Source: Prauserella aidingensis (lineage in GTDB: Bacteria; Actinomycetota; Actinomycetes; Mycobacteriales; Pseudonocardiaceae). From it: 40,430 nt of DNA. Below are positions 105 through 34,940 of this stretch, one piece after another (positions within the stretch are counted from its first letter, which is position 1; every line of letters starts with the position of its first letter). The stretch covers positions 1 through 40,430 of the forward strand of contig NZ_JAMTCN010000035.1 of NCBI RefSeq assembly GCF_024171865.1. The letters run 5' to 3'. The notes beneath the pieces were generated by a model that was not told where the DNA came from, searched no databases, and worked only from the letters and a program-made list of their open reading frames with translations. Made by a program: the position numbers and the translations under genes.

Positions 105-206
105 CACAGAACACGCGCCCGGAACCCGCAACACGGTGCCCGGAACCTGCAACACGCGCCCCGAGAAACACAACACGCGCCCCGAGAAGCGCAACACGGC
201 GTCCGG
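105..206 (-). repeat. 21-bp tandem array A1 (5 units)
   Basis: Five units in minus orientation; the AACAC cores start at 110, 130, 151, 172 and 193 (spacing 20, 21, 21, 21). Read on the minus strand each unit is GTGTTGCG-like followed by TTC and a G run. The array begins 2 bp after the stop codon of the minus-strand glycosyltransferase (208) and is in its sense direction. The outermost unit (near 110) is diverged to GTGTTCTG. Confidence 0.9.
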
Positions 207-207
207 G

Positions 208-1308
208 TCAGGGGGTGCCGGTGGCCGTGCGGTAGGCGGTGAGGGTGGTTTCGGCGCAGCGGAGCCACGTGAAGTTGCCCGCGTGGGCGCGGCGCGTGGC
301 GGCGGTCGACGCGGCGTTGGGCTCGTCGACGGCGGCGCGCAGCTCGGCGGCGAGCGTGTCGACGTCACCGTACGGCGCGAGGTGCGCCAGACCGGCCGAC
401 ACCTCGCGGAGTGCGGGCACGTCGGAGCACACCACGGGGGTGTCGCACGCCATGGCCTCGAGTACCGGAAGTCCGAACCCTTCGTCCCGTGACGGCAGCA
501 CCAGCGCCGAGGCGCCCGCCACCACCCGCTGCAGGTCCACATCGGACAGGTAGCCGACGTGGTGGCGCCGTTTGCCGGGCGGGAACCGGCCCGGGCCCGC
601 GAACACCAGCTGAGGCAGCGACGGGTCGGCGGCGTGTGCCTCGAGCAGCCAGTCGAGGCCCTTGCGCGGCCCCGGTGCGCCTGCGAACAACAGGTACCGC
701 GACGGCAGGCCGAGCCGCTGGCGGGTGCGCACGCTCGGCGGACGTCCGGTGAACCAGCCCGCGTCGACGCCGAGCGGTGTGACGACGATCTTGTCGCGGT
801 CGACGTCGAGTCGTTCCGCGACGGCGTCGGCGACGGCGGCGGTCGGGGTGCAGATCACGTGTGCCCGCCGGGCGCCGCGGCGCACCAGTTCGGGCAGCTC
901 CGCGTCGCTGGGCGGCAGTTCCTCGGGGGCGTCGAGGAACGCCAGGTCGTGGATCGTCAACACGCCCGCGCCGCGCACGCTGGCAGGCAGCACGAAGTTC
1001 GTGCCGTGCACGACGTCGTAGCGCCCGGCGAACAGGCCCACGGGCGGCAGCGACGAACGCACCCACAGTTTCCGCAGGATCCGCGCGGGGACGGGCATGC
1101 CGCGCGCGGCGACGTCGTGCGGCAGGACCGTGCGCAGTGTGCGCCAGCCCCGCAGTGTGAACGCGACGGCGCGCAGGTCGACGTCGTCGGTGAGGGAGGC
1201 GAGTTCCTCGGACAGCGACGCGGTGTACCGTCCGATGCCCGTCCGGTCACCCAGCAGCGGGGTGCCGTCGAGCAGCACCCGCACGGGTCCGCCGCCGCGT
1301 TCAGTCAC
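208..1308 (-). CDS. GT4-family glycosyltransferase
   Basis: A 366-aa GT-B fold, retaining glycosyltransferase of family GT4. The N-terminal half begins with a glycine-rich acceptor-side loop (GTPLLGDRTGIGRYT) and contains the usual VVHGTNFVLP strand. The C-terminal half carries the sugar-nucleotide site: the GAPGPRKG loop and the EGFGLPVLEAMA E-x7-E motif. Donor and acceptor cannot be read from sequence; a mannose- or rhamnose-containing envelope glycan is likely from context. The GTG start (1306-1308) overlaps the 3' end of the upstream GT2-GT4 gene by 8 nt, so the two are probably translationally coupled. It is the last gene of a three-gene minus-strand operon and is followed at once by repeat array A1. 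Confidence 0.88.
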   Translation of the reverse strand: MTERGGGPVRVLLDGTPLLGDRTGIGRYTASLSEELASLTDDVDLRAVAFTLRGWRTLRTVLPHDVAARGMPVPARILRKLWVRSSLPPVGLFAGRYDVVHGTNFVLPASVRGAGVLTIHDLAFLDAPEELPPSDAELPELVRRGARRAHVICTPTAAVADAVAERLDVDRDKIVVTPLGVDAGWFTGRPPSVRTRQRLGLPSRYLLFAGAPGPRKGLDWLLEAHAADPSLPQLVFAGPGRFPPGKRRHHVGYLSDVDLQRVVAGASALVLPSRDEGFGLPVLEAMACDTPVVCSDVPALREVSAGLAHLAPYGDVDTLAAELRAAVDEPNAASTAATRRAHAGNFTWLRCAETTLTAYRTATGTP

Positions 1309-3814
1309 GACCCAGCCTCGTCCGCACGACCTTGCGTACGCGTCCCGCCGCCCTGCGGGCCAGTTCCGTCGGCCCGCCGTCGCCGAGGTATTCCTTGACC
1401 AACGCCGCGTCGCGCCGGAGCTTCTGGGCCCGGTTCAGCGGCGGTTCCGCCGTGAGGTCGGCCGCGCCTGCCAGCCGGTCGGCAGCGGGACGCGGGTCAC
1501 GGACGAACCGCACGAGCGGGTCGAGCACGTTCGGCCACGTGTACCGCTCGACGACCGCGGCGATGCGCTCGCGGCAGCCGTCGGCGAACTCCGTGTCGTA
1601 CAGGCACCGCTCCAGCGCGTCGGCGAGTGCGTCGGTGTCCTCGGCCGGGACGACGACGCCGAGTCGTTCGCGCCGCACGAGGTCGGCGAACGAGTCCCCG
1701 TCGGTCGTGATGATCGGCAGGCCGGCCCAGAGGTAGTCCAGTACGCGGGTGCGGAACGCGAACGTCGTCTCGATGTGCTCGAAGTGTGTCGTGACCCCGC
1801 AGTCGGCGTCGAGGAGCCAGTTCTGGCGGTCGTCGTAGGGCACCCACTGTTCGTTGAAGAACACGTGCTTGCCGGTGAGGCCGAGGGAGTCGGACAGGCG
1901 CATGGTCTGCGCGCCGATGTCCATCTCGGTCACCTCGGGGTTCGGGTGCTTCATGCCGAGGAAGACGAGCCGCGCGTCGTCGTGGCGGGTGCTGAGCCGT
2001 TCCACGGCGCGCACGAGCGTCAGCGGGTCGAACCAGCTGTACACGCCGCCCGCCCACAGCACGACACGGTCGCTTTCGGACAGTCCGAGCGACGATCGCA
2101 GGCCGTCGCCGGTGCGCTGCGGCGGCCGGGCCGACAGTCCGAACGGGACGACCGAGAGCAGTGACTGCGTCGTCGGGTCGGCGTCGTAGAGCCGCGGGGT
2201 GAGCCTGCCGGTGGCGGCGAGATGGCCGAGCCACAGGTGCCGTTGGCGCTCCGAGGCGCACAGGAAGAAGTCGCCGCGCTGCAACTGGGCGTCCAGCACG
2301 CGCGTGACGCCTTCCAGATCGGCGGCGCGGCGGTCGTCGGGCACATCCTTGGTCTGTTCGAGCAGTTCGAGGTGCATCGGGTCGTACAGGTCGCACACCA
2401 CGATCTTGTGCGCGTACTCGGACTGCAGCGCAGGTGCCATTTCGAGTACGTGGCCCTGGAGGATGACGACGTCGGCCCAGCCGATCGGCTCGCGGAGGTC
2501 ACGCCTGCGCGCGGCGCTCACCGGGAACGGGGCGGGCGGCGGCTCGGCGAGGGGGTTGACCGTGACGAGCCGGACGTCGTGCTCGCCGGAGAGGACCTCG
2601 GCGATGTTCCACGCGCGGATCGCCGGGCCCGCCATGCGCTCGGTGATCGCGTCGCCGGTGAGCACCAGCACCTTCCGGCGGGTGCCGAACGCGCGCTCGA
2701 TGCCGAACGCCTCGACGAGGATGTCGTGGGCGGCGAGGTAGTCGGGGAGCGGGTAGGCGGGTTCGAGCGCGTTGCGCAGCAACGGCAGCAGGTCGGCGTC
2801 GGTGCGGACGCGCGCGGCCTGTTCGGCGGCCCGCGACTCGGCCAGCGACGGCAGCTGCTCGACGAACCGGTCGATCGCCAGGACACCGGCGAGGGTGCTG
2901 CGCGGCACCGGCACGGCCGCCGTCTCGGCGGGTCCGGTGCCGTGTTCGAGGTCCAGCTTCGTCGGGTCCAGCTCGCCCCGCGCGGTGGCCCTGCGCACGG
3001 TCAGCGCCAGTGCCGCGGGCAGCGCGCGGGCGAGGGTCTCGTCCGAGGCGTTCTTGTACAGCGCGGCCAGGGCGTTGCGCTCCAGCAGGAACGTCTCCCT
3101 GCCGCTGTCCGGCGAGTCCACTGCGGACATCGTGGCGTGGTGCCGGTGGTAGGTCAGCGACTCCGGCACGTACCGCACGCGCCAGCCACGCAGGTTCAGT
3201 CGCCAGCCGAGGTCGACGTCCTCGTAGAACATGAAGAAGCGCTCGTCGAATCCGCCGAGCTCGGCGAACACCGACGAGCGCACGAACATCGCCGACCCGG
3301 TCGCGAACAGCACGTCCTTGGCGACCTCGTGGTCGCCGCGCGGTACGTCGGCGATCGGCCCGCCCGCGTGGCGCTTGTAGCCCATGCCGAACCAGGTGAG
3401 CCCCGCGTCGACGTAGTCGGTTCCCGTGCCCTCCCAGTCGAGCACCTTGCTCGCGACTGCGCCCACGGTCGGCTCGGCGCGCAGCGTCGCCACGGCGGCG
3501 CCGACCCAGCCGGGCGCGGGCCGGGCGTCGTTGTTGAGCAGGGCCAGCACGGTGCCGTTCGCCTCGCGGGCGCCGAGGTTGCAGCCGCCCGCGAAGCCGC
3601 GGTTCGTGTCCGAGGTGACGAGCCGGACGTCCGGTGCAGCCTCGCGGATGCGCGCCACGTCGTCGCCGCCGGAGGCGTTGTCGACGCAGACGACCTCGAG
3701 GTTCGGATAGTCGTGCTCGGCGAGTGCACGCAGGCACGCGATCGTGTCGTCGGCGCCGCGGTAGTTCACGACGACGACCGAGACCAGCGGTGATGCCGGG
3801 TCCTGCTGCGGCAC
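1301..3814 (-). CDS. bifunctional GT2-GT4 glycosyltransferase fusion
   Basis: An 837-aa protein with two complete catalytic modules. Residues 1 to about 300 are a GT2 (GT-A) rhamnosyltransferase-like domain: VVNYRG strand, DNASGG, LLNNDA metal/nucleotide motif near residue 95 and FYEDVDLGWR catalytic-base motif near residue 200. After a helical linker, residues about 380-760 form a GT-B domain (KVLVLTGDAITERMAGPAIR, the VLWAGGVYSWFDP donor loop, DYLWAGLPIITTDGD). The C-terminal 70 residues are basic and may contact the membrane. The GTG start is preceded by a strong GGAAGGAG ribosome-binding site. The fusion may add two successive sugars to one lipid-linked acceptor (inference). It lies 29 nt after the upstream GT2 gene. 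Confidence 0.88.
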   Translation of the reverse strand: MPQQDPASPLVSVVVVNYRGADDTIACLRALAEHDYPNLEVVCVDNASGGDDVARIREAAPDVRLVTSDTNRGFAGGCNLGAREANGTVLALLNNDARPAPGWVGAAVATLRAEPTVGAVASKVLDWEGTGTDYVDAGLTWFGMGYKRHAGGPIADVPRGDHEVAKDVLFATGSAMFVRSSVFAELGGFDERFFMFYEDVDLGWRLNLRGWRVRYVPESLTYHRHHATMSAVDSPDSGRETFLLERNALAALYKNASDETLARALPAALALTVRRATARGELDPTKLDLEHGTGPAETAAVPVPRSTLAGVLAIDRFVEQLPSLAESRAAEQAARVRTDADLLPLLRNALEPAYPLPDYLAAHDILVEAFGIERAFGTRRKVLVLTGDAITERMAGPAIRAWNIAEVLSGEHDVRLVTVNPLAEPPPAPFPVSAARRRDLREPIGWADVVILQGHVLEMAPALQSEYAHKIVVCDLYDPMHLELLEQTKDVPDDRRAADLEGVTRVLDAQLQRGDFFLCASERQRHLWLGHLAATGRLTPRLYDADPTTQSLLSVVPFGLSARPPQRTGDGLRSSLGLSESDRVVLWAGGVYSWFDPLTLVRAVERLSTRHDDARLVFLGMKHPNPEVTEMDIGAQTMRLSDSLGLTGKHVFFNEQWVPYDDRQNWLLDADCGVTTHFEHIETTFAFRTRVLDYLWAGLPIITTDGDSFADLVRRERLGVVVPAEDTDALADALERCLYDTEFADGCRERIAAVVERYTWPNVLDPLVRFVRDPRPAADRLAGAADLTAEPPLNRAQKLRRDAALVKEYLGDGGPTELARRAAGRVRKVVRTRLGRD

Positions 3815-3843
3815 GGGCGCTCCTTCCCCTCAGCCGCCCCAGC

Positions 3844-6278: not shown

Positions 6279-7424
6279 GTGGCCGATCCCAGAGTGTTGA
6301 TCGACGCCACCGCTGTGCCTGCCGACCGCGGTGGCGTCGGCAGATATGTCGACTCCCTGGTCGCCGCCCTCGACACCGATGGGGCGGCGATCTCCGTGGT
6401 GTGCCAGCCGCGCGACACCGAGCTGTACGCCGGCCTCGCCCCGCACGCGGAGATCGTGCCCGCCGCCGAGTCGACCGCGACCCGCACGGCCCGCCTGACC
6501 TGGGAACAGACCACCCTGCCACGGCTCGTGGGGCGGCTCGGCGTAGACGTCGTCCACTCGCCGCACTACACGATGCCGCTCGCCAGCCGCGCCGCTTCGG
6601 TGGTGACGCTGCACGACGCGACGTTCTTCACCGACCCGGTGCTCCACTCGTCGGTCAAGGCGCGCTTCTTCCGCGCGTGGACCTCGACCGCGCTGCGGCG
6701 CGCGGACGTGTGCGTCGTACCGAGCGACGCCACCGCCGACGAACTCGCGCGGGTCACCCCGGCGTCCGGCGCGCGCGTCGAGGTCGTCCACCACGGCGTC
6801 GACGAGGAGCGGTTCCACGTGCCTTCGCCCGAGGAATGCCGCGCCGCGCGCGACGCCATCGGCCTCGGCGCCACGCCGTACGTCGCGTTCCTCGGCGCGC
6901 TCGAACCGCGCAAGAACGTGCCCGCCCTGGTTCGCGGGTTCGCCCACGCCGTCGAGGACATGGCGCAGCCGCCCGCGCTCGTGCTGGCCGGCCAGCCCGG
7001 CTGGGACCGGCAGGTCGAGTCCGCGCTCGACTCGGTGCCGCACCGGCTGCGCGTGATCCGCGCCGGTTATCTGCCGTTCGACACCCTGGCGGGTTTCCTG
7101 GGCGGCAGCGAGCTCGTCGCGTATCCGAGTCTCGGTGAGGGCTTCGGGTTGCCGGTGCTCGAGGCGATGGCGTCGGGCGCCTGTGTGCTGACGACGCGGC
7201 GGCTGGCGTTGCCGGAGGTGGGCGGTGACGCGGTGGCCTACTGCGGGGTCGGTGCGGGCGACGTCGCGGCCGCGTTGCGGGACCTGCTCGACGACCCGGC
7301 GCGCCGCTCCCGGCTGGCCTCGGCCGCGCAGCGCAGGGCGAAGGACTTCTCGTGGTGCTCCACCGCCGAACGCCACCGCGAGGCCTACGACAGGGCCGTC
7401 CACGCCGCCCGCCTGCCGCACTGA
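6279..7424 (+). CDS. GT4-family glycosyltransferase (mannosyltransferase-like)
   Basis: A 381-aa GT-B glycosyltransferase. It opens with VLIDATAVPADRGGVGRYV, the acceptor loop of GT4 mannosyl- and rhamnosyltransferases, continues with VVHSPHYTMPLASR and HDATFFTDP, then the donor domain with FLGALEPRKNVPALV and EGFGLPVLEAMASG (E-x7-E). An upstream in-frame ATG (6225) would add 18 residues unlike the family; GTG 6279 follows a TACCCT box by 6 nt and is preferred. A triple 11-bp direct repeat upstream suggests response-regulator control of this gene in particular. It is followed by repeat array A2 and then wbbL. Envelope glycan assembly is the likely role. Confidence 0.88.
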   Translation: MADPRVLIDATAVPADRGGVGRYVDSLVAALDTDGAAISVVCQPRDTELYAGLAPHAEIVPAAESTATRTARLTWEQTTLPRLVGRLGVDVVHSPHYTMPLASRAASVVTLHDATFFTDPVLHSSVKARFFRAWTSTALRRADVCVVPSDATADELARVTPASGARVEVVHHGVDEERFHVPSPEECRAARDAIGLGATPYVAFLGALEPRKNVPALVRGFAHAVEDMAQPPALVLAGQPGWDRQVESALDSVPHRLRVIRAGYLPFDTLAGFLGGSELVAYPSLGEGFGLPVLEAMASGACVLTTRRLALPEVGGDAVAYCGVGAGDVAAALRDLLDDPARRSRLASAAQRRAKDFSWCSTAERHREAYDRAVHAARLPH

Positions 7425-7442: not shown

Positions 7443-7552
7443 CGCGTGTCCTGGCGCCCAAGAGACCGTGTTGCGCCCCCAGGGGACCGTGTTGCGGATT
7501 CAGGGGACCGTCTTGCGCCCGCAGGGGAGCGTGTTGCGGACTCGGGGCCGGT
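7443..7552 (+). repeat. 21-bp tandem array A2 (4 units plus 1 degenerate)
   Basis: GTGTT cores start at 7468, 7489, 7510 (as GTCTT) and 7531, exactly 21 bp apart, with a degenerate GTGTCCTGG unit at 7446. The array starts 19 bp after the stop codon of the plus-strand GT4 gene, in its sense direction. Confidence 0.9.
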
Positions 7553-13070: not shown

Positions 13071-14159
13071 ATGGGGTCCTCGTCCGGAGGCGGTGCGGTC
13101 GACGCCGTGGTGCTCGTCGGCGGTAAAGGCACCAGGTTGCGCCCGCTGACCCTCTCCGCGCCGAAGCCGATGTTGCCGACGGCGGGCGTGCCGTTCCTGT
13201 CGCACCTGCTGTCGCGGATCCGCGCGGCGGGGATCACACATGTGGTGCTCGGCACGTCGTACCAGGCCGAGGTGTTCGAGGAGCACTTCGGCGACGGCAG
13301 CGCGCTCGGTCTCGAACTCGAGTACGTCGTCGAGGACGAGCCGCTCGACACCGGCGGGGCGATCCGCAACGTGTACGACCGGCTCCGCGGCGACGACGTC
13401 GTGATCTTCAACGGCGACATCCTGTCCGGAACGGACATCGGCTCGCTCGTCGGCACGCACCGCTCGTCGGGCGCCGACGTCACCCTGCACCTGCAGCGTG
13501 TGGCCGATCCGAGCCGGTTCGGCTCCGTGCCCACCGACGCCGACGGCCGCGTGACGGCGTTCCTCGAGAAGACGCAGAATCCGCCGACCGACCAGGTCAA
13601 CGCCGGGTGCTACGTGTTCCGCCGCGAGGTCGTCGGCGGGATCCCGGCGGGCAGGCGCGTGTCGGTCGAGCGGGAGACGTTCCCCGGACTGCTCGAGGCG
13701 GGCGCCCACGTGCACGGGTTCGTCGACGACTCCTACTGGCTCGACGTCGGCACGCCCGAGACGTTCGTGCAGGGGAGCACCGACCTGGTGCGGGGCGTGG
13801 CGCCGACGTCGGCGCTGTCCGGGCCGACGGGCGAGGCGCTGCAGCTGGCCGGTGCGGCCGTGGCGGACGACGCCGAGGTCACGGGCGGGTCGACGCTCGG
13901 GGCGGGTTCCGTCGTCGGCACCGGCGCGCGGGTCGCGTCGTCGGTGCTGTTCGACGGTGCCGTGGTCGAGGCCGGGGCCGTGGTGGAGCGTTCCGTGCTG
14001 GGCGCCGGTTCCCGCGTGGGCGAGGGTGCGGTGCTGCGCGGTGTCGCACTCGGCGACGGCGTGAGCGTCGGCGAGGGCTGCGAACTCCTTGACGGGGCGC
14101 GCGTGTGGCCGAAGGTGGAGCTGCCGCCCGGCGCGATCCGGTTCTCCAGCGATGCGTGA
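13071..14159 (+). CDS. manB: mannose-1-phosphate guanylyltransferase (GDP-mannose pyrophosphorylase)
   Basis: A 362-aa nucleotidyltransferase making GDP-mannose from mannose-1-phosphate and GTP, the donor for mannosylated lipids and glycans. The N-terminal Rossmann-like domain begins VVLVGGKGTRLRPLTLS with the pyrophosphorylase signature and has KPMLP, LDTGGAIRN and the metal site FNGDILSG. Residues from about 255 form a left-handed beta-helix of hexapeptide repeats ending GARVWPKVELPPGAIRFSSDA. It closely resembles mycobacterial ManB (Rv3264c), which also lies near wbbL; manC is an equivalent name. ATG 13071 is chosen over GTG 13059 because it fits the family's N-terminus. Its last 8 nt overlap the next gene. 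Confidence 0.92.
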   Translation: MGSSSGGGAVDAVVLVGGKGTRLRPLTLSAPKPMLPTAGVPFLSHLLSRIRAAGITHVVLGTSYQAEVFEEHFGDGSALGLELEYVVEDEPLDTGGAIRNVYDRLRGDDVVIFNGDILSGTDIGSLVGTHRSSGADVTLHLQRVADPSRFGSVPTDADGRVTAFLEKTQNPPTDQVNAGCYVFRREVVGGIPAGRRVSVERETFPGLLEAGAHVHGFVDDSYWLDVGTPETFVQGSTDLVRGVAPTSALSGPTGEALQLAGAAVADDAEVTGGSTLGAGSVVGTGARVASSVLFDGAVVEAGAVVERSVLGAGSRVGEGAVLRGVALGDGVSVGEGCELLDGARVWPKVELPPGAIRFSSDA

Positions 14160-15048
14160 ACGGCGGTGGCGACCCGGTTTCGACGTCGATCCCGACGCCG
14201 TGCTGGCACCGTTGCGGCGTGGCCATGCCGACCCGTGTTTCCGGCGTGACGGCGGCATCTGGCTGACGGCGAACACCTCGTGCGGGCCCGCCACGCTGCG
14301 GGTGTCACGGTCCGATGTGGACGTCATCGGCACCGCGTGGGGCGACGGTGCCGACGCGATCCTCGAGGGCCTGCCCGCGCTGCTGGGCGCCGCCGACGAC
14401 GATTCCGGGTTCGTGGCGCACCACGACGCGGTCGCGCGGGCACGGCGGACGCTGCCGGCGTTACGGCTGGGCGCGACCGGGCGGGTGTGGGATGTGCTCG
14501 TGCCCGCGGTGCTCGAGCAGAAGGTCACGGGCTACGAGGCGCGCCGGTCGTGGCGGGAGCTGTGCCGGCGATTCGGCGAGCCCGCACCGGGTCCCGCGCC
14601 GGACGGGATGCACGTCCCGCCGACCCCCGACGCCGTGTTGTCCATTGTGGATTGGAACTGGCACAGGGCCGGGGTGGACCTCGCGCGCAGGCGGGCGTTG
14701 CGGGCCGCGGCGACGGTGGCGGGCAGGTTGGAACGTGCCGCGTCCCTGGGCGGAGCCGAGGGCAGGAGGTTGCTGCGGACCGTGCCGGGTATCGGCGTGT
14801 GGACCGCCGCCGAGGTGGCCCAGCGCGCGTGGGGCGATGCGGACGCGGTCAGCTTCGGCGACTTCCACATCCCCGCGGTCGTCGGCCACGCCCTGCTCGG
14901 CCGCGAACTCGACGACGCCGGAATGCACGAGGTCCTCGCCCCGTACGCGCCGCAGCGCCACCGCGTCGTGCGCTACCTCGAGGCCGCGGGCCACACCCGC
15001 CCCCGCTACGGCTCGCGCCACCCGGTCCGCGACTACCGCGCCATCTGA
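14152..15048 (+). CDS. HhH-GPD superfamily DNA glycosylase (AlkA-like)
   Basis: A 298-aa protein of the HhH-GPD base-excision repair family, probably removing alkylated bases such as 3-methyladenine. The core has WDVLVPAVLEQKVTGYEARRSW (helical barrel), the helix-hairpin-helix VPGIGVWTAAEVAQRA near residues 205-220, and SFGDFHIPAVVG, whose Asp corresponds to the catalytic aspartate of AlkA. An N-terminal extension of about 90 residues (CFRRDGGIWLTANTSCGPATLRV) resembles the AlkA beta domain. It starts inside manB (8-nt overlap), so it is translationally coupled to an unrelated sugar-nucleotide enzyme. The exact base specificity cannot be read. Confidence 0.85.
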   Translation: MRERRWRPGFDVDPDAVLAPLRRGHADPCFRRDGGIWLTANTSCGPATLRVSRSDVDVIGTAWGDGADAILEGLPALLGAADDDSGFVAHHDAVARARRTLPALRLGATGRVWDVLVPAVLEQKVTGYEARRSWRELCRRFGEPAPGPAPDGMHVPPTPDAVLSIVDWNWHRAGVDLARRRALRAAATVAGRLERAASLGGAEGRRLLRTVPGIGVWTAAEVAQRAWGDADAVSFGDFHIPAVVGHALLGRELDDAGMHEVLAPYAPQRHRVVRYLEAAGHTRPRYGSRHPVRDYRAI

Positions 15049-15059
15049 CCGCCCAGGCC

Positions 15060-15200
15060 GCCGTGTTGCGGATCCCGGGAATCGTGTTGCGGTTTCAGGG
15101 GCGCGTGTTGCGGATTGGCGGGCTCGTGTTGCGGTTTCCGGGGGCCGTGTTGCGGTTTCGCGGGATCGTGTTGCGGTTTCGTGGGCTCGTATTGTTCCCG
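15060..15200 (+). repeat. 21-bp tandem array A3 (7 units)
   Basis: GTGTT cores at 15063, 15084, 15105, 15126, 15147, 15168 and 15189 (the last as GTATT), with an invariant 21-bp period. It starts 12 bp after the DNA glycosylase stop, in its sense direction. It fills the first part of the gap 15049-15409. The rest holds only a weak bulged stem-loop near 15277-15299 and no recognisable gene. Confidence 0.93.
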
Positions 15201-16004: not shown

Positions 16005-16192
16005 AACGCCGAACACGCGGCCCTGAGCGCAGAACACGCGCCCCTGGAACCGCAACACGGCCCCTCGAAACCGCAACACGCGCCCCCGGAACTGCAACAC
16101 GCGCCCCCGAATCCGCAACACGCGCCCCCGGGACTGCAACGCGCGCCCCCCGAATCCGCAACACGCGCCCCTGGGGACGCAACACGGCGGGC
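16005..16192 (-). repeat. 21-bp tandem array A4 (9 units)
   Basis: The longest array: AACAC cores at 16012, 16033, 16054, 16075, 16096, 16117, 16138 (AACGC), 16160 and 16181, with 21-bp spacing except one step of 22. It is in minus orientation, ending 2 bp from the stop codon of the minus-strand GntR gene. The two units farthest from that gene are diverged (GTGTTCTG, GTGTTCGG on the sense strand). Confidence 0.93.
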
Positions 16193-16194: not shown

Positions 16195-16908
16195 TCAGGC
16201 GAAGGCGTCGAGGAGTTGGCGCTGTGCCGTGGTGAGGTACTCGTCGAGGGCGCGGGCCGCGGCGCCGAACTCGCCGTCGCCCAGCAGGCGGGCGATGCCG
16301 CGGTTGAGCTCGATGTACGGCTCGTGGAAGCGGCGCAGGGCCGACGTCGCGTGGAACGCCAGTCGCAGTTCCGCCGTGAGCTGCTGCATGATCTCGTCGG
16401 CCCGCGGGCTGCCTGCGAGTGCCGTGATCGCCTGATGGAACCGCATGTTCGCGGTGCCGACGTCCAGCCAGTGCTCTTCGACGGCGGCGTCCTCTGCGGC
16501 GGTGATCGCCGCGTCGATCGCCGACAGTCGCTCCGCCAGCACGTCCGGGGGCACGTCGGACGCCGCCCGGATCGCGCCGGTCTCCAGCAGGCGCCGCGTG
16601 CGGTACAAATCGGTCACGTCGTCGGCGGCCAGCACTCGGACGAACACGCCGCGATGGAACTCGTGCACGAGCAGTCGTTCGTGGACCAGGAGACGGAACG
16701 CCTCGCGCAGCGTGTTGCGTGACACCCCGAGCGCCTTGCCCGCGCTGTGCTCCGACAGCTGCGTGCCCGGCCGGAGGCGGCCGTCGATGATCCACTGTCG
16801 CAGCGCGTCGGCGACCCGTTCCGCGGTGCTGGTTCGGTCGAGCAGTGCGCGGTCACCCGCGAGCAGGTCGGACCAGTCGGCCTGGTCGCGGGCGGTGGGA
16901 CTGGCCAT
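16195..16908 (-). CDS. GntR-family transcriptional regulator, FadR subfamily
   Basis: A 237-aa regulator. The winged helix-turn-helix (about residues 25-95) reads ERVADALRQWIIDGRLRPGTQLSE then ALGVSRNTLREAFRLLVHERLL, and VFVRVL forms the wing. Residues 105-230 are an all-helical FCD ligand-binding domain; FCD domains often bind small carboxylates through a metal held by Asp and His residues such as those in MRFHQAI and FHATSALRRFHEP. It is divergent from the NRAMP-like/PxpB/PxpC operon, which it most likely controls through the TTGTTGAACAA palindrome at 16976-16986. ATG 16908 is chosen because upstream in-frame sequence has no regulator character. Confidence 0.9.
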   Translation of the reverse strand: MASPTARDQADWSDLLAGDRALLDRTSTAERVADALRQWIIDGRLRPGTQLSEHSAGKALGVSRNTLREAFRLLVHERLLVHEFHRGVFVRVLAADDVTDLYRTRRLLETGAIRAASDVPPDVLAERLSAIDAAITAAEDAAVEEHWLDVGTANMRFHQAITALAGSPRADEIMQQLTAELRLAFHATSALRRFHEPYIELNRGIARLLGDGEFGAAARALDEYLTTAQRQLLDAFA

Positions 16909-20826: not shown

Positions 20827-20877
20827 CACGCCGAATCCGTGTCGTGGGGCGCGGCCGCACCCTGCTGCCGGCCCCGG

Positions 20878-21020
20878 GGTCCGCACCACGAACCCCGGGA
20901 TCTGTAACACGGGCTCCGGAAACCGCAACACGGCCCCGGGAATCCACAACACGAACCCCGGAACCTGCAACACGGCCCCCGGGATCCGCAACACGGCTCC
21001 GGGAATCCGCGACACGGTGG
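20878..21020 (-). repeat. 21-bp tandem array A5 (7 units)
   Basis: Cores at 20885 (ACCAC), 20906, 20927, 20948, 20969, 20990 (AACAC) and 21011 (GACAC), exactly 21 bp apart. It is in minus orientation, 12 bp from the stop of the minus-strand YtrA-type GntR gene. The outermost unit is diverged to GTGGTGCG on the sense strand. Confidence 0.93.
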
Positions 21021-21031: not shown

Positions 21032-21391
21032 TCAGGAGGTGCGGATGGCGGCGGTGACGATGGCGATGGCCTCGTCCTCGCTCAGGCCGAGCTTGTGGGC
21101 CGTGTCGGCATAACGGCGGGCCGCGTCGCGGGCCCTGATCCTCGTGCGGTCGCCGGTGGCCGCGACGAACGTGCCCGAACGGCCCTTCGTCTCGAGCAGC
21201 CCGGCTTCCTCGAGCTCGCGGTAGGCGCGGGCGATCGTGTTGGGCGCGATGCCGAGGTCGGCGGCGAGTTTGCGCACGGTGGGCAGTTTCGTGCCGACGG
21301 CCAGTGCGCCGTCGTTGATCTGCTCGGCCAGCCCGGAGCGGATCTGTTCGTACGGCGGCACCTTCGAGGTGGCGTCCACGGTGACGATCAT
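21032..21391 (-). CDS. GntR-family regulator, YtrA subfamily
   Basis: A short 119-aa repressor. The winged helix-turn-helix spans residues 10-75: VPPYEQIRSGLAEQINDGALAVGTKLPTVRKLAADLGIAPNTIARAYRELEEAGLL, with TKGRSGTFVA as the wing. The C-terminal 40 residues form only two helices for dimerisation (DAARRYADTAHKLGLSEDEAIAIV), as usual for YtrA regulators. Its ATG overlaps the stop of the upstream membrane-protein gene by 4 nt (ATGA). YtrA regulators usually repress their own operon with an adjacent transport or membrane gene; the 13-bp inverted repeat at 22202-22247 in front of that operon is the probable operator. Confidence 0.92.
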   Translation of the reverse strand: MIVTVDATSKVPPYEQIRSGLAEQINDGALAVGTKLPTVRKLAADLGIAPNTIARAYRELEEAGLLETKGRSGTFVAATGDRTRIRARDAARRYADTAHKLGLSEDEAIAIVTAAIRTS

Positions 21392-26385: not shown

Positions 26386-26709
26386 GTGACCTACGTTATC
26401 GCCGAGCCGTGCGTCGACTTGCTCGACAAGGCATGCATCGACGAGTGCCCCGTCGACTGCATCTACGAGGGCGACCGGATGCTCTACATCCACCCCGACG
26501 AATGCGTCGATTGCGGTGCCTGCGAGCCGGTGTGCCCCGTGGAAGCGATCTACTACGAGGACGACGTCCCGGAAGAGTGGGCCAGCTACACCAAGGCGAA
26601 CGTGGACTTCTTCGACGAGCTCGGCTCGCCGGGCGGAGCGTCCAAGGTCGGCAAGACCGCGCACGACCCGCAGTGGATCAAGGACCTGCCCCCGCAGTCG
26701 CACGAATGA
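26386..26709 (+). CDS. fdxA: 7Fe ferredoxin FdxA
   Basis: A 107-aa ferredoxin carrying one [3Fe-4S] and one [4Fe-4S] cluster, a soluble electron carrier. Cysteines are at 9, 17, 21, 25, 40, 43, 46 and 50: C-x7-C-x3-CPVDC then C-x2-C-x2-C-x3-CP, the actinobacterial FdxA pattern. The C-terminal extension ([21 protein letters not shown]) wraps the core in known structures. GTG 26386 has AGGAGA 10 nt upstream. Its end overlaps dapC by 4 nt, the same fdxA-dapC arrangement as in mycobacteria. Confidence 0.95.
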
Positions 26710-27797
26710 CCCGGCTCCAGCTGCCCGGCTTCCCCTGGGACTCGCTGGCCGAACACACCGCACGGGCGAAGGCGCACCCGGACGGGATCGTCGACCTGTC
26801 GGTCGGCACACCGGTCGACCCGGTGCCCGAGGCCGTCCGGGACGCGCTGGCGTCCGTGTCGGACATCCCCGGCTATCCGACCACGCACGGCACGGCGGAA
26901 CTGCGGGAGGCCGCCGTCGAGGCGCTGAGCCGCAGGCACGGCGTCACCGGCGTCGACCCGGACGCCGTGCTGCCCACGATCGGTTCGAAGGAACTGGTCG
27001 CGTGGTTGCCGATGCTGCTGGGAGCGGGCGCGGGTGACGTCGTCGTCATCCCGGAACTGGCGTACCCGACGTACGAGGTCGGGGCGCTGATCGCGGGCGC
27101 GACGCCCCGCCGCGCCGACAGTCTGACCGCGCTCGGGCCCGAGACGCCCGCGATGGTCTGGCTCAACTCCCCGTCGAACCCGACCGGTCGCGTGCTGGGC
27201 GTCGACCACCTGCGCAAGGTCGTCGACTGGGCCCGCGAGCGCGGCGTCACGGTCGTGTCCGACGAGTGTTACCTCGCGCTCGGCTGGGACGCCGACCCGG
27301 TCTCGATCCTGCACCCCGACGTGTGCGGCGGCAGCCACGAGGGCCTGCTCGCCGTGCACTCGCTGTCGAAGTCGGCCAACCTCGCCGGCTACCGCGCCGG
27401 CTTCGTCACCGGCGACCCCGCGTTGGTCGCCGACCTGCTGGCCGTCCGCAAACACGCGGGCATGATCGTGCCGAGGCCCGTGCAGGAGGCCATGCGCGTG
27501 GCACTCGCCGACGACGCGCTGCTCGACCGGCAGCGCGAGCTGTACCTCTCCCGCCGTGAACTGCTGCGCGAGGCGTTCACCGGCGCGGGCTTCCGCATCG
27601 ACCACTCCGAAGCGGGCCTGTACCTCTGGGCCACGCGCGACGAGCCGACCGACGACACGGTGGCGTGGCTCGCCGAACGCGGGATCCTCGTCGCCCCCGG
27701 TACGTTCTACGGCCCCGGTGGCGGCTCGCACGTGCGCGTCGCCCTGACCGCCACCGACGAACGCGTCGCGACCGCCGCGAAACGCCTCTCGGAGTAA
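26706..27797 (+). CDS. dapC: N-succinyldiaminopimelate aminotransferase DapC
   Basis: A 363-aa class I/II PLP aminotransferase of lysine and meso-diaminopimelate synthesis, converting N-succinyl-2-amino-6-ketopimelate to N-succinyl-LL-diaminopimelate with glutamate. Motifs: [10 protein letters not shown] at the N-terminus, [10 protein letters not shown] (phosphate site), [12 protein letters not shown] (Asn for the PLP ring), VVSDECYL (Asp/Tyr), and [16 protein letters not shown] with the Schiff-base lysine. The C-terminal domain ends with the substrate-binding Arg in [10 protein letters not shown]. The ATG overlaps the fdxA stop. dapD and dapE lie 0.7-3.4 kb downstream, so most succinylase-branch genes are grouped here. 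Confidence 0.94.
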
Positions 27798-27804: not shown

Positions 27805-27975
27805 CGGCCGTCTTGCGCTTTCCGGGGCCCGTGTTGCGCTTTCCGGAGTTCGTGTTGCGGATCCAGGGGCCCGTGTTGCGGATTCCGGGGTTCGTGTGGC
27901 GCTTTCCGGGACCGCGTTGTGGACCCGGGGCACGCGTGTCCTGCGTTCGGTACCGCGTGTTCTGCATTCGCTCGG
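27805..27975 (+). repeat. 21-bp tandem array A6 (8 units)
   Basis: Cores at 27810 (GTCTT), 27831, 27852, 27873, 27894 (GTGTG), 27914 (GCGTT), 27936 (GTGTC) and 27957. Spacing is 21 bp except one pair of 20 and 22. It starts 8 bp after the dapC stop in the sense direction. The two units farthest from dapC are diverged (GTGTCCTGCG, GTGTTCTGC). Confidence 0.9.
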
Positions 27976-28024: not shown

Positions 28025-28234
28025 ATGAGCCGCGTAGTCCATGTGCCGTACGTCGTCGAGCAGGACGAGGACGGCGTCTGGTGTGCCCACGCGCAGTTGC
28101 GCCCGTACGTAGGGGCGCACGGCGAAGGCGATACCCGGGACGCCGCCGTCTCGGACCTGCGCGATGCCCTCCTGGGACTGATCGAGGAATTCGGTGCTCC
28201 CGACGAACTGGCCGTCACCTTGGACGTCGCCTGA
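28025..28234 (+). CDS. hicB: HicB-family antitoxin
   Basis: A 69-aa HicB antitoxin. The partial RNase H-like fold is visible in VHVPYVVEQDEDGVWCAHAQLRPYVGAHGEGDTRDAAVSDLRDALLGLIEEFG, the typical pattern of a short acidic beta-sheet then helix. There is no room for a C-terminal DNA-binding domain, so autoregulation, if any, uses another protein or surface. AGAAGGGG lies 9 nt before the ATG. It overlaps hicA by one base (TGATG), and the antitoxin gene comes first, opposite to the E. coli hicA-hicB order. Confidence 0.85.
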   Translation: MSRVVHVPYVVEQDEDGVWCAHAQLRPYVGAHGEGDTRDAAVSDLRDALLGLIEEFGAPDELAVTLDVA

Positions 28235-28458
28235 TGCCGCCTGTGCCTTCCGTACGGGGTGACAGGCTGGTCAAGGCGTTGCAGAAGGCAGGTTTCGACG
28301 TCGCCCGGGTGGCGGGCAGCCACCACATCCTGCGCCACCCGGACGGGCGCGGGACGACTGTTCCCGTTCATCGTGGACGCGATCTCGCCAAAGGCACTCT
28401 CCGAGGCATCGTGAACGACGTCGACATGACGATCGACGAGTTGCAGAAGCTGCTGTAG
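28234..28458 (+). CDS. hicA: HicA-family mRNA interferase toxin
   Basis: A 74-aa HicA toxin with the double-stranded-RNA-binding-like fold. The sequence GDRLVKALQKAGFDVARVAGSHHILRHPDGRGTTVPVHRGRDLAKGTLRGIVNDVDM contains the family core, with the catalytic histidine in GSHH and the LAKGTLRGI helix. It would cleave mRNA when released from HicB. It is directly coupled to hicB and followed by a 20-bp perfect hairpin terminator shared with dapD. All recognisable catalytic residues are intact. Confidence 0.9.
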   Translation: MPPVPSVRGDRLVKALQKAGFDVARVAGSHHILRHPDGRGTTVPVHRGRDLAKGTLRGIVNDVDMTIDELQKLL

Positions 28459-30062: not shown

Positions 30063-30148
30063 CGGCCCGTGTTGCGGATTCCGGGGCCCGTGTTGCGGGT
30101 TCGGGGGAGCGTGTTGCGGATTCCGGGGTGCGTGGTGCGTCCGCCCGC
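30063..30148 (+). repeat. 21-bp tandem array A7 (4 units)
   Basis: Cores at 30069, 30090, 30111 and 30132 (GTGGT), exactly 21 bp apart. Unlike all other arrays it lies between divergent genes, upstream of the dapE promoter, with its sense strand reading towards dapE. The last unit is diverged to GTGGTGCG. Confidence 0.92.
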
Positions 30149-30201: not shown

Positions 30202-31275
30202 ATGCCCACGCTCGATCTGCACGCCGACCCCGTCGACCTGACCGCCGCGCTGGTGGACATCCCGTCCGAATCGACCCACGAGCGGCCGATCGCCGACGCG
30301 GTCGAGGCCGCGCTGCGCAGTCAGGCGCCGCACCTCGAGGTCGTCCGCAGCGGCGACGCCGTGCTGGCCAGGACGAACCTCGGCAGGCCGTCGCGGATCG
30401 TGCTCGCCGGGCACCTCGACACGGTGCCGGAGAACGCGAACATGCCCAGCAGCCGCAGCGCTGACGGCGCGACCATGTACGGCCTCGGCACGGTCGACAT
30501 GAAGGGCGGCGACGCGGTGTTCCTGCACCTGGCTGCGACGCTCACCGAACCCGAGCGCGACATCACGTTCGTCTTCTACGACTGCGAGGAGATCGACGCC
30601 AGCCGCAACGGCCTCGGCCGCATCGAACGGGAGGCGCCCGAGTGGCTGCGGGGCGACCTGGCGATCGTGGGGGAGCCGTCGAACGCGTCGATCGAGGCGG
30701 GCTGCCAGGGCACGATGCGCATCGACGTGACGACCTCGGGCGCGCGGGCGCACACCGCACGTGCGTGGATGGGCGTCAACGCCGTCCACGCACTGAGCGA
30801 ACCACTGCGCAGGCTCGAGGCGTACGAACCGCGCGTGGTCGACATCGACGGGCTGACCTACCGCGAGGGGTTGCAGGCCGTGCGGATCGGCGGTGGCGTG
30901 GCGGGCAACGTGGTGCCGGACTCCGCGGTGCTGGGCGTCAACCACCGGTTCGCCCCCGACCGCACCACCGAGGAGGCCGAGGCGCACCTGCGCGCGGTGT
31001 TCGACGGCTACGAGGTGACGGTCGTCGATGTCTCGCCGAGCGCGCGGCCCGGCCTGTCGGAGCCGGCGGCGGCCGAGCTCGTCGCGGCCGCGGGCGGCAC
31101 GGCGACCGCGAAGCTCGGCTGGACCGACGTCGCGCGGTTCTCGGCGTTCGGCATGCCCGCGGTCAACTTCGGCCCTGGCGACCCGACGTTCGCGCACACG
31201 CAGGCCGAACAGGTCGCGGTCGCCGACATCACGCGGCACGCCGACGTGCTGCGGCGGTTCCTCGCCGGCGGCTGA
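30202..31275 (+). CDS. dapE: succinyl-diaminopimelate desuccinylase DapE
   Basis: A 357-aa M20 zinc peptidase-family enzyme that releases succinate from N-succinyl-LL-DAP. Zinc and catalytic motifs are present in order: [13 protein letters not shown] (His ligand and Asp), [14 protein letters not shown] (bridging Asp), FYDCEEIDA (general base Glu and ligand), [15 protein letters not shown] and the C-terminal [13 protein letters not shown] (His ligand). The dimerisation domain inserts at about residues 180-290. A TACTGT box lies 7 nt before the ATG, and array A7 lies just upstream. It is divergent from the lipoprotein gene. Confidence 0.94.
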
Positions 31276-31349
31276 CGTGCGGCTGACGGGGGACTGAAGG
31301 GTGGCTGAAGGGCGGCTCGCCCGGACAGTGACGCACGCACGGTGCCTCG

Positions 31350-31355
31350 TAGGCT
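31350..31355 (+). promoter_or_regulatory. -10 box of a leaderless transcript for the LOG-family gene
   Basis: TAGGCT, 7 nt before GTG 31363. Upstream, 31276-31320 contains imperfect repeats of GGCTGAAGGG. Confidence 0.5.
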
Positions 31356-31362
31356 GTGACGC

Positions 31363-32154: not shown

Positions 32155-32726
32155 TGCTGCGGCGGATCTGTGTTTTCTGCGGCTCGTCGGCAGGCGACGA
32201 CCCGGTGTACACCGAGGTCGCGTCGGCGGTCGGCAAGTTGCTGGCCTGCCGGGGGATCGGGCTCGTCTACGGCGGCGGTGACGTCGGGCTGATGGGCACG
32301 GTGGCCGACGCCGCCCTCGCGGCGGGCGGCGAGGTGATCGGCGTGATCCCCGAGCACCTCGTGCGCGCCGAGGTGGCGCACCACGGCGTCACCGAGCTGC
32401 GGATCGTCGAGGACATGCACGAGCGGAAGGCCACGATGGCCTCGCTGTCGGACGCGTTCCTCGCGTTGCCGGGCGGTATCGGCACGTTGGAGGAGCTGTT
32501 CGAGATCTGGACGTGGGCCCAGCTCGGGCTGCACGCGAAACCGGTCGGCATCGTCGACGTCGCCGGTTTCTACGTCAAACTCGGCGAATTCCTCGACCAC
32601 ATGGTGGATTCCGGCTTCCTCAACACCCCGAGTCGCGAACTGGTGCGGCTCGACGCCGACCCGGAGAAACTCCTCGACTCCTTCTCCCGGCACTCCGGGG
32701 TCGCCGTCGACAAGTGGGACGTCTGA
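32154..32726 (+). CDS. LOG-family cytokinin riboside 5'-monophosphate phosphoribohydrolase
   Basis: A 190-aa compact LOG protein resembling Rv1205. It begins RRICVFCGSSAGDDPVYTE, has VYGGGDVGLMGTVADAAL, GVIPEHLV, HERKATMASLSDAFLALPGGIGTLEELFEIWTWAQLG (PGGxGTxxE active-site signature with the catalytic Arg/Glu) and ends VAVDKWDV. It would release a free cytokinin-type base from the nucleotide. GTG 32154 shares one base with the upstream stop, so the two LOG genes are coupled. It converges on the PlsC-like gene. Confidence 0.92.
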   Translation: MLRRICVFCGSSAGDDPVYTEVASAVGKLLACRGIGLVYGGGDVGLMGTVADAALAAGGEVIGVIPEHLVRAEVAHHGVTELRIVEDMHERKATMASLSDAFLALPGGIGTLEELFEIWTWAQLGLHAKPVGIVDVAGFYVKLGEFLDHMVDSGFLNTPSRELVRLDADPEKLLDSFSRHSGVAVDKWDV

Positions 32727-32800
32727 CCGGCTTTCGCCCGTGACGGCGCGTCGGCGAGGCCGGTCGCCCGGCGATGTACGCGTGCGGGCCACGCGGTGGG

Positions 32801-33475
32801 TCAGGCGGCGTCGCCCTCCGGGCGCTTGTGATAGGCGTCGACGTACTCCTGGCCGGACAGCTCGAGGATCGAGTACATGACCTCGTCGGTGACGGCGCGG
32901 CGGATCGGCGGCGAGGCGGCGAGCCCGTCGTAGCGGGAGAAGTCGAGCGGTTCGCCGAACCGGACCGTGACCTGCGCGGGCCGCGGGAGCTTCTTCCCGA
33001 CGGGGAGCAGGTTCTCGGTGCCGGACACGGCGACCGGTACGACCGGTGCGCGGGTGGCGAGCGCCAATGCGGCGACGCCGGTGTGCCCGCGGTGCAGCTT
33101 GCCGTCGAGGGAACGGGTTCCCTCCGGGTAGATGCCGAACGCGCCGCCGGAGTCGAGCACCTTCTGCGCGGCACCGAGCGCGGCGAGACCGGCTGCGGCG
33201 TTGCCACGCTCCACCGGTACGTACCCCAGCGCCGACAGGAACGCCGAGCGCAGCCGGTCCTTCGGGCTGGTGCCCTCGAAGTACTCGGCCTTGCCCAGGA
33301 AGGCCACGGGACGCGGCGCGACGAACGGGATCACGGCCGTGTCGATGGCCGAGCGGTGGTTCGACGCGAAGATCACCGGGCCGTCGGGCGGCACGTTCTC
33401 GGTGCCGCGGACGTCCGGCCGCCACAACATCCTGGCAAGAGGGGCGACTCCGCGGCGGATCAACAGGTGCAGCAC
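32801..33475 (-). CDS. 1-acyl-sn-glycerol-3-phosphate acyltransferase (PlsC-like)
   Basis: A 224-aa membrane-associated acyltransferase for phospholipid synthesis or lipid remodelling. The catalytic H-x4-D is NHRSAID (His40, Asp45), followed by FLGKAEYFE, the substrate-phosphate motif YPEGTRS and the VPVAVSGTENLLP block. The first 18 residues are hydrophobic and basic (MLHLLIRRGVAPLARML) and would dock at the membrane. Start is GTG 33475. It is divergent from the small membrane-anchored gene at 33553. Confidence 0.9.
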   Translation of the reverse strand: MLHLLIRRGVAPLARMLWRPDVRGTENVPPDGPVIFASNHRSAIDTAVIPFVAPRPVAFLGKAEYFEGTSPKDRLRSAFLSALGYVPVERGNAAAGLAALGAAQKVLDSGGAFGIYPEGTRSLDGKLHRGHTGVAALALATRAPVVPVAVSGTENLLPVGKKLPRPAQVTVRFGEPLDFSRYDGLAASPPIRRAVTDEVMYSILELSGQEYVDAYHKRPEGDAA

Positions 33476-33552
33476 GCGTCCAGCATCTCACGGCGCGGCA
33501 AACCGGTGTGACGTCCGCGCGAGCGATGGGGGGCCTGTGCCACGATCGGGGT

Positions 33553-34107
33553 GTGACCACCGCGCTCATCTACCTGCTCGTCATGCTGCTCGTGGCGGCG
33601 GTCGTGTTCCTGCTCGCCGCGCTCGTGTTCGGCCGTGGTGAGCAGCTCGCGCCGCTCGCGCAGGGTGCGTCGCCGACGCGACTGCCCGCCGAGGACATCA
33701 CCGGTGACGACGTGGCGGCGGTGAAGTTCCAGCTCACCGCCCGCGGCTATAAGATGTCCGAGGTGGACTGGGTGATCGCCCGCCTCGGTGGTGAGATCGA
33801 CAGCCTGCGCGGGCGGATCGCCGAGCTGGAGACCGAGCTCGACGCGCGCGCGGCCCGTGCCGAGCGGGGCGGCGAACACCCCGGCGAGGGGGACGGCGAC
33901 GTGGAACGGGGCGGCGCGGTGGAAGGCCTCGGCGTGTCGGGCGACACCGGCACGGCGGGCAGGAACGGGGCACACGGCGTGACCAGGGCACACGGCGCGG
34001 AGAGCGCACCGGGTGTGGAGAGCGCACCGGGTGTGGACGGGGTGCAGGACGTGGGCAGGGCGCAGGGCATGGGCCGGGTGCAGGGCATGGGCAGGGTGCA
34101 GCGGTGA
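33553..34107 (+). CDS. membrane-anchored DivIVA-domain-like protein
   Basis: A 184-aa protein. Residues 2-28 are one transmembrane helix (TALIYLLVMLLVAAVVFLLAALVF). Residues 45-100 read LPAEDITGDDVAAVKFQLTARGYKMSEVDWVIARLGGEIDSLRGRIAELETELDA, which resembles the short DivIVA-like motif followed by a coiled coil. The rest is a disordered Gly/Glu/Ala-rich tail made by near-exact DNA repeats. A role at the cell pole or septum is only suggested by the motif. The GTG start has a CACGAT box 6 nt upstream. It overlaps tag by 4 nt (GTGA), the same pairing as Rv1209-tagA in mycobacteria. Confidence 0.8.
   Translation: MTTALIYLLVMLLVAAVVFLLAALVFGRGEQLAPLAQGASPTRLPAEDITGDDVAAVKFQLTARGYKMSEVDWVIARLGGEIDSLRGRIAELETELDARAARAERGGEHPGEGDGDVERGGAVEGLGVSGDTGTAGRNGAHGVTRAHGAESAPGVESAPGVDGVQDVGRAQGMGRVQGMGRVQR
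34000..34104. repeat. in-frame 18-bp repeats in the tail of the DivIVA-like gene
   Basis: Two exact 18-bp copies begin near 34001 and 34019 (encoding ESAPGV twice). A second set with GGGCAGGGTGCAGGGC-like units follows (encoding GRAQGM, GRVQGM, GRVQR). Confidence 0.7.
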
Positions 34108-34712
34108 CGACGGGCGAGGGCGAACGGGTCGTGACCGGCACGGACGAGCTGACCGGCGCCGACGGCGTGGCCCGTTGTTCGTGGGGCAACAGTGCGCCCG
34201 ACTACGCGGAGTACCACGACACCGAGTGGGGCGTCCCGTTGCGCGGGGAGACGGCGCTGTTCGAACGGCTGTCGCTCGAGGCGTTCCAGTCCGGTCTGTC
34301 GTGGCTGACGATCCTGCGCAAGCGGGAGGCGTTCCGTGACGCGTTCGCCGGTTTCGACCCGCGCGCCGTCGCGGCGTTCACCGACGACGACGTCGCCCGG
34401 TTGCTCGCCGACGCGCGGATCGTCCGCAACCGTGCGAAGGTCCACGCCACGATCGGCAACGCGCGCGCGATCGCCGAGCTGGACACCCCGCTGGACGACC
34501 TGCTGTGGTCGTTCGCCCCGGAGCCTCGCGACTCCCGCGGCCGTCCCGCGACGATGGCCGACGTGCCCGCGGTGACCCCCGAGTCGACCGCGATGGCGAA
34601 GGCGTTGAAGAAGCGCGGGTTCACGTTCGTCGGGCCGACGACCTGCTACGCGATGATGCAGGCCACGGGCATGGTCGACGATCACGTCGCCGGCTGCCAC
34701 CGCGCGGTGTGA
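34104..34712 (+). CDS. tag: DNA-3-methyladenine glycosylase I
   Basis: A 202-aa Tag enzyme that excises 3-methyladenine from DNA. The zinc-binding residues fit E. coli Tag spacing: Cys25-x12-His38 and His194-x3-Cys198. The signature YHDTEWGVPL contains the active-site Glu41; SLEAFQSGLSWLTILRKREAFRDAF and the C-terminal KKRGFTFVGPTTCYAMMQATGMVDDH follow. The first 20 residues are extra relative to E. coli. GTG 34104 overlaps the upstream gene by 4 nt. With the HhH-GPD enzyme at 14152 the window has two alkylation-repair glycosylases. Confidence 0.95.
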   Translation: MTTGEGERVVTGTDELTGADGVARCSWGNSAPDYAEYHDTEWGVPLRGETALFERLSLEAFQSGLSWLTILRKREAFRDAFAGFDPRAVAAFTDDDVARLLADARIVRNRAKVHATIGNARAIAELDTPLDDLLWSFAPEPRDSRGRPATMADVPAVTPESTAMAKALKKRGFTFVGPTTCYAMMQATGMVDDHVAGCHRAV

Positions 34713-34796
34713 CCGGGGGCCGACCGGTCGCGCGCCCGTAGGCGGCACGGTCACGACTCCGCACGGTCACGCGCCGGGCCCGACGAGATGGCCGCC

Positions 34797-34940
34797 TCCC
34801 CGGAATTCGCAACACGATCCCCGGGATCCGCAACACGAGCCCCGGGATCCGCAACACGGGCGCCGGAACCCGCAACACGGTCCCGTCGATCTGCAACACG
34901 GGCGCTGCAACCCGCGACGCGGCCCTGCCTGCGACGCGGG
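34797..34940 (-). repeat. 21-bp tandem array A8 (6 units plus degenerate)
   Basis: AACAC cores at 34811, 34832, 34853, 34874 and 34895, then GACGC at 34916, all 21 bp apart, and a diverged GACGC at 34933. It is in minus orientation, in the 3' flank of the minus-strand enoyl-CoA hydratase gene (stop 34979) and convergent with tag. Here the gene-proximal units are the more diverged ones. Confidence 0.9.

Follow-up and report, generated by a model that had tools for sequence, protein, structure and literature searches.

What is a short unit for that is repeated in tandem at an almost exact period and recurs in eight separate arrays between the genes of 40,430 nucleotides of Prauserella aidingensis DNA (the window, that is, the whole stretch analysed here)? 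The eight arrays described by a first-pass annotation are present (Table 1) and, as it had claimed, all are intergenic, eight of eight lying outside the genes predicted by our script.

A 21-bp unit in the window and across the genome

Cut at the GTGTTGCG anchor, the window arrays resolve into 21-bp units arranged head to tail; isolated steps of 20 or 22 bp occur, and the ends are degenerate. A weight matrix counts 42 units at a score of at least 9, and the degenerate units at the edges bring the total nearer to the about 50 first estimated, while the range of four to nine units per array has to be replaced by three to eight clear ones. With up to three mismatches, an 18-mer of the unit matches the window 64 times against 24.0 ± 4.6 times in dinucleotide shuffles, a number which was reached by none of 100 shuffles.

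Table 1. Arrays A1 to A8 and other features of the window. Distances are counted from the stop codon of the gene named.
Feature	Position	Strand	Units at score ≥ 9	Description	Neighbouring gene
A1	115..198	-	4	4 clear units	9 bp past stop of glycosyltransferase gene 208-1308 (-)
A2	7467..7550	+	3	4 units, 3 above threshold	42 bp past stop of glycosyltransferase gene 6294-7424 (+)
A3	15062..15187	+	6	6 units	13 bp past stop of gene 14152-15048 (+), without Pfam match
A4	16018..16186	-	8	8 units, one 22-bp step	8 bp past stop of GntR/FCD regulator gene 16195-16908 (-)
A5	20870..21016	-	7	7 units	15 bp past stop of GntR gene 21032-21391 (-)
A6	27809..27933	+	6	6 units and degenerate ones to about 27975	11 bp past stop of aminotransferase gene 26706-27797 (+)
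Small ORF	28043-28234	+		63 aa, without Pfam match	upstream of HicA gene
HicA toxin family protein	28234-28458	+		Pfam PF07927, E 5e-19	adjoins A6
A7	30068..30130	+	3	3 units; no other window array is in a divergent region	upstream of M20 peptidase-like gene 30202-31275 (+)
A8	34796..34900	-	5	5 clear units	78 bp past stop of enoyl-CoA hydratase gene 34979-35782 (-); convergent with 34104-34712 (+)
16-bp tandem repeat	37740-37807			4.2 copies, 92% matches	converging ends of genes 36236-37753 (+) and 37808-38752 (-)
17-bp tandem repeat	40127-40218			perfect, 5.4 copies	directly after hairpin with core GCGTTGAACGC

The sense consensus of the unit is CGTGTTGCGGATTCCGGGGNC, in which positions 1-9, 12-14 and 16-19 are constrained and positions 11, 15 and 20 are the loosest. 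Adjacent units agree in 96-100% of pairs at positions 2-7 and in 42-55% at positions 11, 15 and 20. Their overall identity of 0.78 barely exceeds the 0.74 between units of different arrays, so that most arrays are not fresh duplications. Mutual information within the unit is highest between near neighbours (10-11, 11-12, 10-12, 11-13 and 20-21) and does not follow base pairing.

Two further tandem repeats of the window have other periods, the perfect 17-bp repeat being unrelated to the arrays in unit as well as in period. The small open reading frame upstream of the hicA gene may encode a HicB partner, judged by resemblance; the hicA-bearing stretch is found in G000, the genome to which the window belongs, and in the congener G006, and is absent from G003, G004 and G005 in an alignment of these genomes made without G002.

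Scans of the genome and its relatives for the unit, along the lines proposed by the first-pass annotation, revealed dispersed arrays in G000, the window's pair of units in six genomes and a looser form across the family. G000 (5.65 Mb in 80 contigs) contains 530 matches to the 18-mer with up to one mismatch, where the reversed pattern yields 11. Within 400 kb of contig C3, 118 units reach a weight-matrix score of 13 and none does so in the reversed sequence; 21 is the top intergenic repeat period there (29 arrays, with 11 at 42), and 6 arrays of period 21 lie inside genes. A sample of 840 kb, composed of C3 (400 of 456 kb), the window and parts of C4, C6 and C9 that were picked because of known matches, holds 66 arrays with 303 units, two to eight per array; A1, which has no left gene at the window edge, is excluded from the 66. 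The near-exact period is borne out, with 232 of 240 steps in this sample at 21 bp. Only four of the 66 arrays overlap by more than half with genes, as predicted solely by our own codon-model script, and the motif is thus dispersed, neither confined to the window nor as common inside genes at random spacing. Extrapolation from the pattern counts gives about 160 arrays and about 730 units genome-wide.

Placement at gene ends and retention at orthologous places

Most arrays of G000 are intergenic and start near a stop codon, the latter feature being absent from the first-pass annotation. By region type, 31 arrays lie in 116 convergent, 26 in 281 co-directional and 9 in 136 divergent regions, which places 31 of 66 arrays on the 17% of intergenic bases that are convergent (chi-square p 4e-10 over region types). 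The nearest stop codon is at most 22 bp away for 20 of the 30 non-divergent arrays of C3 and the window, and for the 26 co-directional arrays the stop lies a median of about 34 bp before the array and the next start about 137 bp after it. Relative to the gene with the nearest stop, 41 of 57 non-divergent arrays (72%; p 0.001) run in sense and 16 in antisense orientation; the sense share is 21 of 30 in the subset of C3 and the window, and 17 of 26 (p 0.17) in co-directional arrays alone. Inspection by eye of the flanks of the nine divergent arrays made no shared regulator evident.

The window is syntenic in six congeners, which allows the same gene ends to be compared between species. At array-bearing ends an array is present at 25 of 36 orthologous places in G002-G006, against only 4 of 138 orthologues of array-free ends of G000 (Fisher p 1e-17), a count in which A7 was taken at the start of its downstream gene and edge or missing cases were excluded. 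All 25 orthologous arrays keep their orientation, and the distance is often similar. The gene end of A5 carries an array in all five of these congeners; at the A1 locus, G002 has an additional array in opposite orientation. No one-to-one correspondence of units exists between species at the same locus, and at the A4 locus the units are locally alike in G004 and G002 and diverse in G000. The replacement of units between species at places that are kept indicates that address and consensus persist as the units themselves turn over.

A separate observation concerns the locus 34712-34979, where G000 and G003-G006 have a 21-bp array and G002 and G001 have hairpin-like inverted repeats of the GCGTTGAACGC kind instead, which suggests, as far as the alignment of sequences goes, that one 3'-end element may have been exchanged for another. 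In the regions of G000 that were counted, a TTGA-loop stem of this kind was not found.

Related units in the family and the spacing of facing arrays

The window's pair of units, with up to one mismatch, occurs in six of 390 genomes of the family, all of one genus, and pattern counts in these six carrying congeners range from 35 to 278. The seventh member of the genus, G001, has 21-bp arrays of its own, built from a different unit (CGTGTCAGCACCCCACGTCGC or variants of it); the 40 kb examined hold two such places, each where converging genes end. When the pattern is relaxed to three CGTGT at steps of 21 bp, matches appear in 113 of the 390 genomes and 20 of the 46 genera of the family: each of the seven genus members has 143 to 365, parts of the genera g44, g53, g4, g16, g10, g52 and g40 have tens to hundreds, and many other genomes have one or two, near the control level. 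Inside g44 and g16, a species may have tens of matches and its sister species none. In a class-wide sample, 20 of 295 genomes (G000 excluded) have one to five matches. Several genera of the family are rich in the looser form, which combines the 21-bp period with CGTGT and a remainder peculiar to each lineage, and genomes outside the family hardly have it. The remaining 16 bases of the unit differ by lineage, and the steps measure 21 bp in 327 of 341 cases in the genus sample, G000 included, and in 184 of 190 in g44.

Matches to the reversed control pattern were inspected in three genomes. They fall on one place in G389 and on two in G160, and those of G361 are, at most places, members that carry CGTGT within the unit. 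In G160, which belongs to g16 and lacks CGTGT matches, 21-bp tandem arrays starting TGTGCCAA occur at two places (L275, L278, L281) and are possibly a further branch of the array family. In G152 two distinct 21-bp unit types (L267-L272) are found in one genome and could correspond to two binders.

Placement differs between genera. All 15 arrays found in 560 kb of G221 are intergenic and 14 of them stand in inverted pairs, the prevailing arrangement in g44. None of the 58 arrays in 40 stretches selected by matches, from G209 and four g16 genomes, overlaps predicted genes by more than 0.4. A stop codon lies within 30 bp of 17 of 26 arrays in g16, where two of 26 are divergent, and of only 6 of 32 arrays in G209 and 5 of 15 in G221, gene calls in all of these being based on little training sequence.

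Where a minus-strand array faces a plus-strand array in g44 and g16, the gap between their CGTGT ends is quantised, near 2, 11 or 20 bp. Among the 62 distinct junctions listed for G209, G221 and G203 (from 50 of 59, 21 of 35 and 4 of 4 plus-strand matches, respectively), 13 have gaps of 2-3 bp, 44 of 9-13 bp, four of 21-24 bp and one of 29 bp, with none at 4-8 or 14-20 bp. A second survey covered 22 genomes, eight of them with listed matches (11 of 18 in G166), nine more with matches and five without; 65 of the 75 plus-strand matches listed were kept, and ten that were palindromic or ambiguous were dropped (two in G083, four in G149, one in G152 and three in G166). The 65 unambiguous junctions listed from seven g16 genomes comprise 14 gaps of 9-12 bp, 46 of 19-21 bp and five of 24-30 bp. 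Those dropped amount to nine junctions with gaps of 0, 4, 17, 19, 20, 21, 21, 22 and 23 bp. Bins of 2-3, 9-13, 19-24 and 29-30 bp, which occupy 15 of 31 possible lengths and were chosen after inspection of the data, capture 126 of the 127 kept junctions listed and, as three of the dropped ones fall outside, 132 of 136 when these are added. Rayleigh p values for the phasing of 1e-15 to 1e-20 assume an independence that is breached by related genomes and by look-alike loci in G209; many of the gap sequences differ, most of all those of g16. The gap step that fits best is 9.4 bp overall, closer to 9.5 than to 10.5 bp, and 10.0 bp for g44, at or slightly below a helical turn. In the sample from the window's genus no head-to-head pair occurs. 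A repeat of two turns together with gap steps of one turn suits a protein on one face of the DNA.

Candidate readings and known systems

The arrays may be same-facing sites for an oligomerising, sequence-specific DNA-binding protein and may mark transcription boundaries, a reading based on the DNA itself to which we lean tentatively, at somewhat below even confidence. Each array would be a row of same-facing putative binding sites, one per 21 bp or two helical turns, and the candidate protein a sequence-specific binder forming oligomers on a single face of the helix. Lying 3' of genes and most densely between converging genes, the array would most likely be a transcription boundary, at which the bound filament could block or release the RNA polymerase leaving the gene. 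Protein binding, filament formation and termination or insulation as the outcome are the steps that we infer; the binding geometry is supported by sequence, and the boundary role is favoured on account of placement, orientation bias and orthologous retention. The incomplete sense bias, the greater distance from stop codons and the inverted pairs in g44, the nine divergent arrays and the lack of a difference in hairpin terminators (below) count against this reading. That a whole boundary system exists, with phased gene-end arrays at least of the order of a hundred and a filament protein whose recognition sequence varies by lineage under fixed 21-bp geometry and CGTGT, is possible but doubtful; in such a system binder and all arrays would co-evolve. 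Among the three readings offered by the first-pass annotation, helically phased protein binding is now best supported, owing to the exact 21-bp period, the quantised gaps in two other genera and the lack of hairpin covariation in the genus, and the RNA 3' element and the selfish repeat have lost ground.

The closest rival, which we regard as rather unlikely, keeps the same phased array of protein on DNA and assigns to it a role in nucleoid organisation, be it anchoring, looping or segregation, with arrays at gene ends because these are places that tolerate a bound filament without disturbance of promoters. All evidence at the DNA level fits it equally, orientation and stop distance do vary between genera, and Subirana and Messeguer propose such a role for repeats of constant size in the available part of their text (PMC8161180). 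What it does not predict is that arrays of the window's genus start within about 20 bp of a stop codon, that sense orientation prevails as it does, and that orientation and often distance are kept at orthologous ends. Closeness to the stop and sense bias would equally be expected from an RNA element of the 3' untranslated region that acts in stability, processing or protein binding to the transcript, and sense array RNA folds slightly better than shuffles (mean z -1.9, against -0.5 for antisense; 25 arrays). The genus consensus also permits a 13-bp hairpin between neighbouring units in a favoured register (10.12 pairs, against 3.4-7.6 when slid by 1-3), but actual neighbours in the genus have no pairing advantage over units matched at random (10.12 versus 10.16, z -0.9), so that covariation is absent there. 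In G221 neighbours exceed random partners in total (5.99 versus 5.57 pairs, z 4.3) and at two of the 13 pairs (15/16), and yet the pairing improves to 7.62 when the hairpin register is shifted by -1. The hairpin between neighbouring units is unsupported in the genus by pairing and covariation, with a local excess in G221; the quantised gaps, none of those kept among the junctions listed being of 4-8 bp, would be odd for RNA loops, and with the antisense arrays counted above they make an RNA element improbable.

The same data bear on a minisatellite, selfish or neutral, that would spread and be kept uniform by slippage or gene conversion, a reading which would account for unit turnover and local rehomogenisation of some arrays, for the spread of pattern counts among the carrying congeners and for head-to-head loci of G209 that resemble mutual copies. 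Neutral drift should, however, affect all 21 positions, whereas six of them hardly vary and three vary almost freely. Orthologous arrays of different species also share address and orientation, searches of the plasmid and phage collections with A3 and of viral contigs with the exact unit pair gave no match, and we hold this reading to be quite improbable. That the arrays are a coding repeat of seven codons, translated by read-through, is hardly credible: 21 is a multiple of three and only 28 of 396 array frames contain a stop, but few stops are expected anyway at 73% G+C, the bases are conserved without codon rhythm, all window arrays except A7 follow predicted stop codons, and the g16 unit, from its sequence, has a stop in one antisense frame.

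Other RNA-level candidates were considered apart from these. The idea that arrays replace hairpin terminators was rejected as evidence, since hairpins do not differ significantly between regions with and without an array. When regions filled by the array are set aside, residual hairpins with z < -2 occur in 7 of 20 convergent regions with an array and 35 of 72 without one (p 0.22), and in 6 of 18 and 39 of 204 co-directional ones, respectively (p 0.43). Perfect stems of at least 10 show no difference either (4 of 28 array-bearing versus 13 of 72 array-free convergent regions), fewer than 40 nt remaining outside the array in 8 of the 28. Rfam has no match in the window at gathering score. G-quadruplex and Rho-site readings were discarded on reading the sequence, as the g16 unit has neither the G runs nor the base bias seen in the window unit.

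The arrays can be compared with several known systems by layout. Plasmid iterons are helically phased direct repeats near 21-22 bp, but the 66 arrays dispersed in 840 kb at gene ends are not tied to one replication origin. CRISPR arrays are dismissed because the units are contiguous at 21-bp steps without unique spacers, and REP/BIME elements because the unit is one-directional and non-palindromic, the permitted neighbour hairpin having no covariation in the genus. Mycobacterial MIRU/VNTR loci have longer units, and the 21-bp unit is set apart from them by its length. The eukaryotic rDNA terminators bound by TTF-I and Reb1 are tandem protein sites just 3' of a gene, where polymerase is blocked; the likeness is again one of layout, the present arrays being bacterial and scattered over some 160 places by extrapolation. 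Should the arrays terminate transcription, they would do so by a device that differs from the hairpin and Rho types, and if the reading as a boundary system is true, they would be a bacterial counterpart of protein-array terminators. The Pseudonocardiaceae include antibiotic producers that can be grown, which makes the function of the arrays testable.

Among actinobacterial proteins, BldC of Streptomyces is described, in the available part of the source, as binding direct repeats as head-to-tail multimers on sites that vary in length (PMC5859096). This small protein, which oligomerises head to tail, demonstrates that such a binding mode exists, and the likeness is drawn on repeat layout; BldC controls a regulon of developmental genes (PMC5859096), whereas the present arrays lie at gene ends.

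The first-pass annotation knew of no named actinobacterial class with this unit, which needs correcting, since the accessible portion of the text of Subirana and Messeguer already describes bacterial tandem repeats of constant size, 20-21 nt and 52 nt, with a sequence that varies and is specific to the species and with a short motif kept in the repeats, in Actinobacteria too (PMC8161180). The size of these repeats is conserved and their role is called an open puzzle, with protein polymerisation on DNA or small RNAs as suggestions (PMC8161180). At least four repeats per array, found by SATFIND, are demanded there (PMC8161180), and by our own count 49 of the 66 arrays in the 840 kb have four or more units. 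As far as that portion goes, the present arrays resemble these repeats in being non-coding, of constant 20-21 nt and lineage-specific in sequence with a short kept part, and differ in that the unit is specific to a genus rather than to a species, with CGTGT retained. Several repeat families per genome are reported there (PMC8161180), and two unit types were seen here in G152. The same portion of text does not place the repeats relative to genes and finds their sequence conserved only among close relatives (PMC8161180), whereas the arrays described here have a CGTGT that crosses genera, sites at stop codons, persistence at orthologous ends and quantised gaps. The shared anchor, the conserved gene-end address and the phasing are apparently new, although priority is not certain; together with orthologous retention, they offer handles on the puzzle of these repeats.
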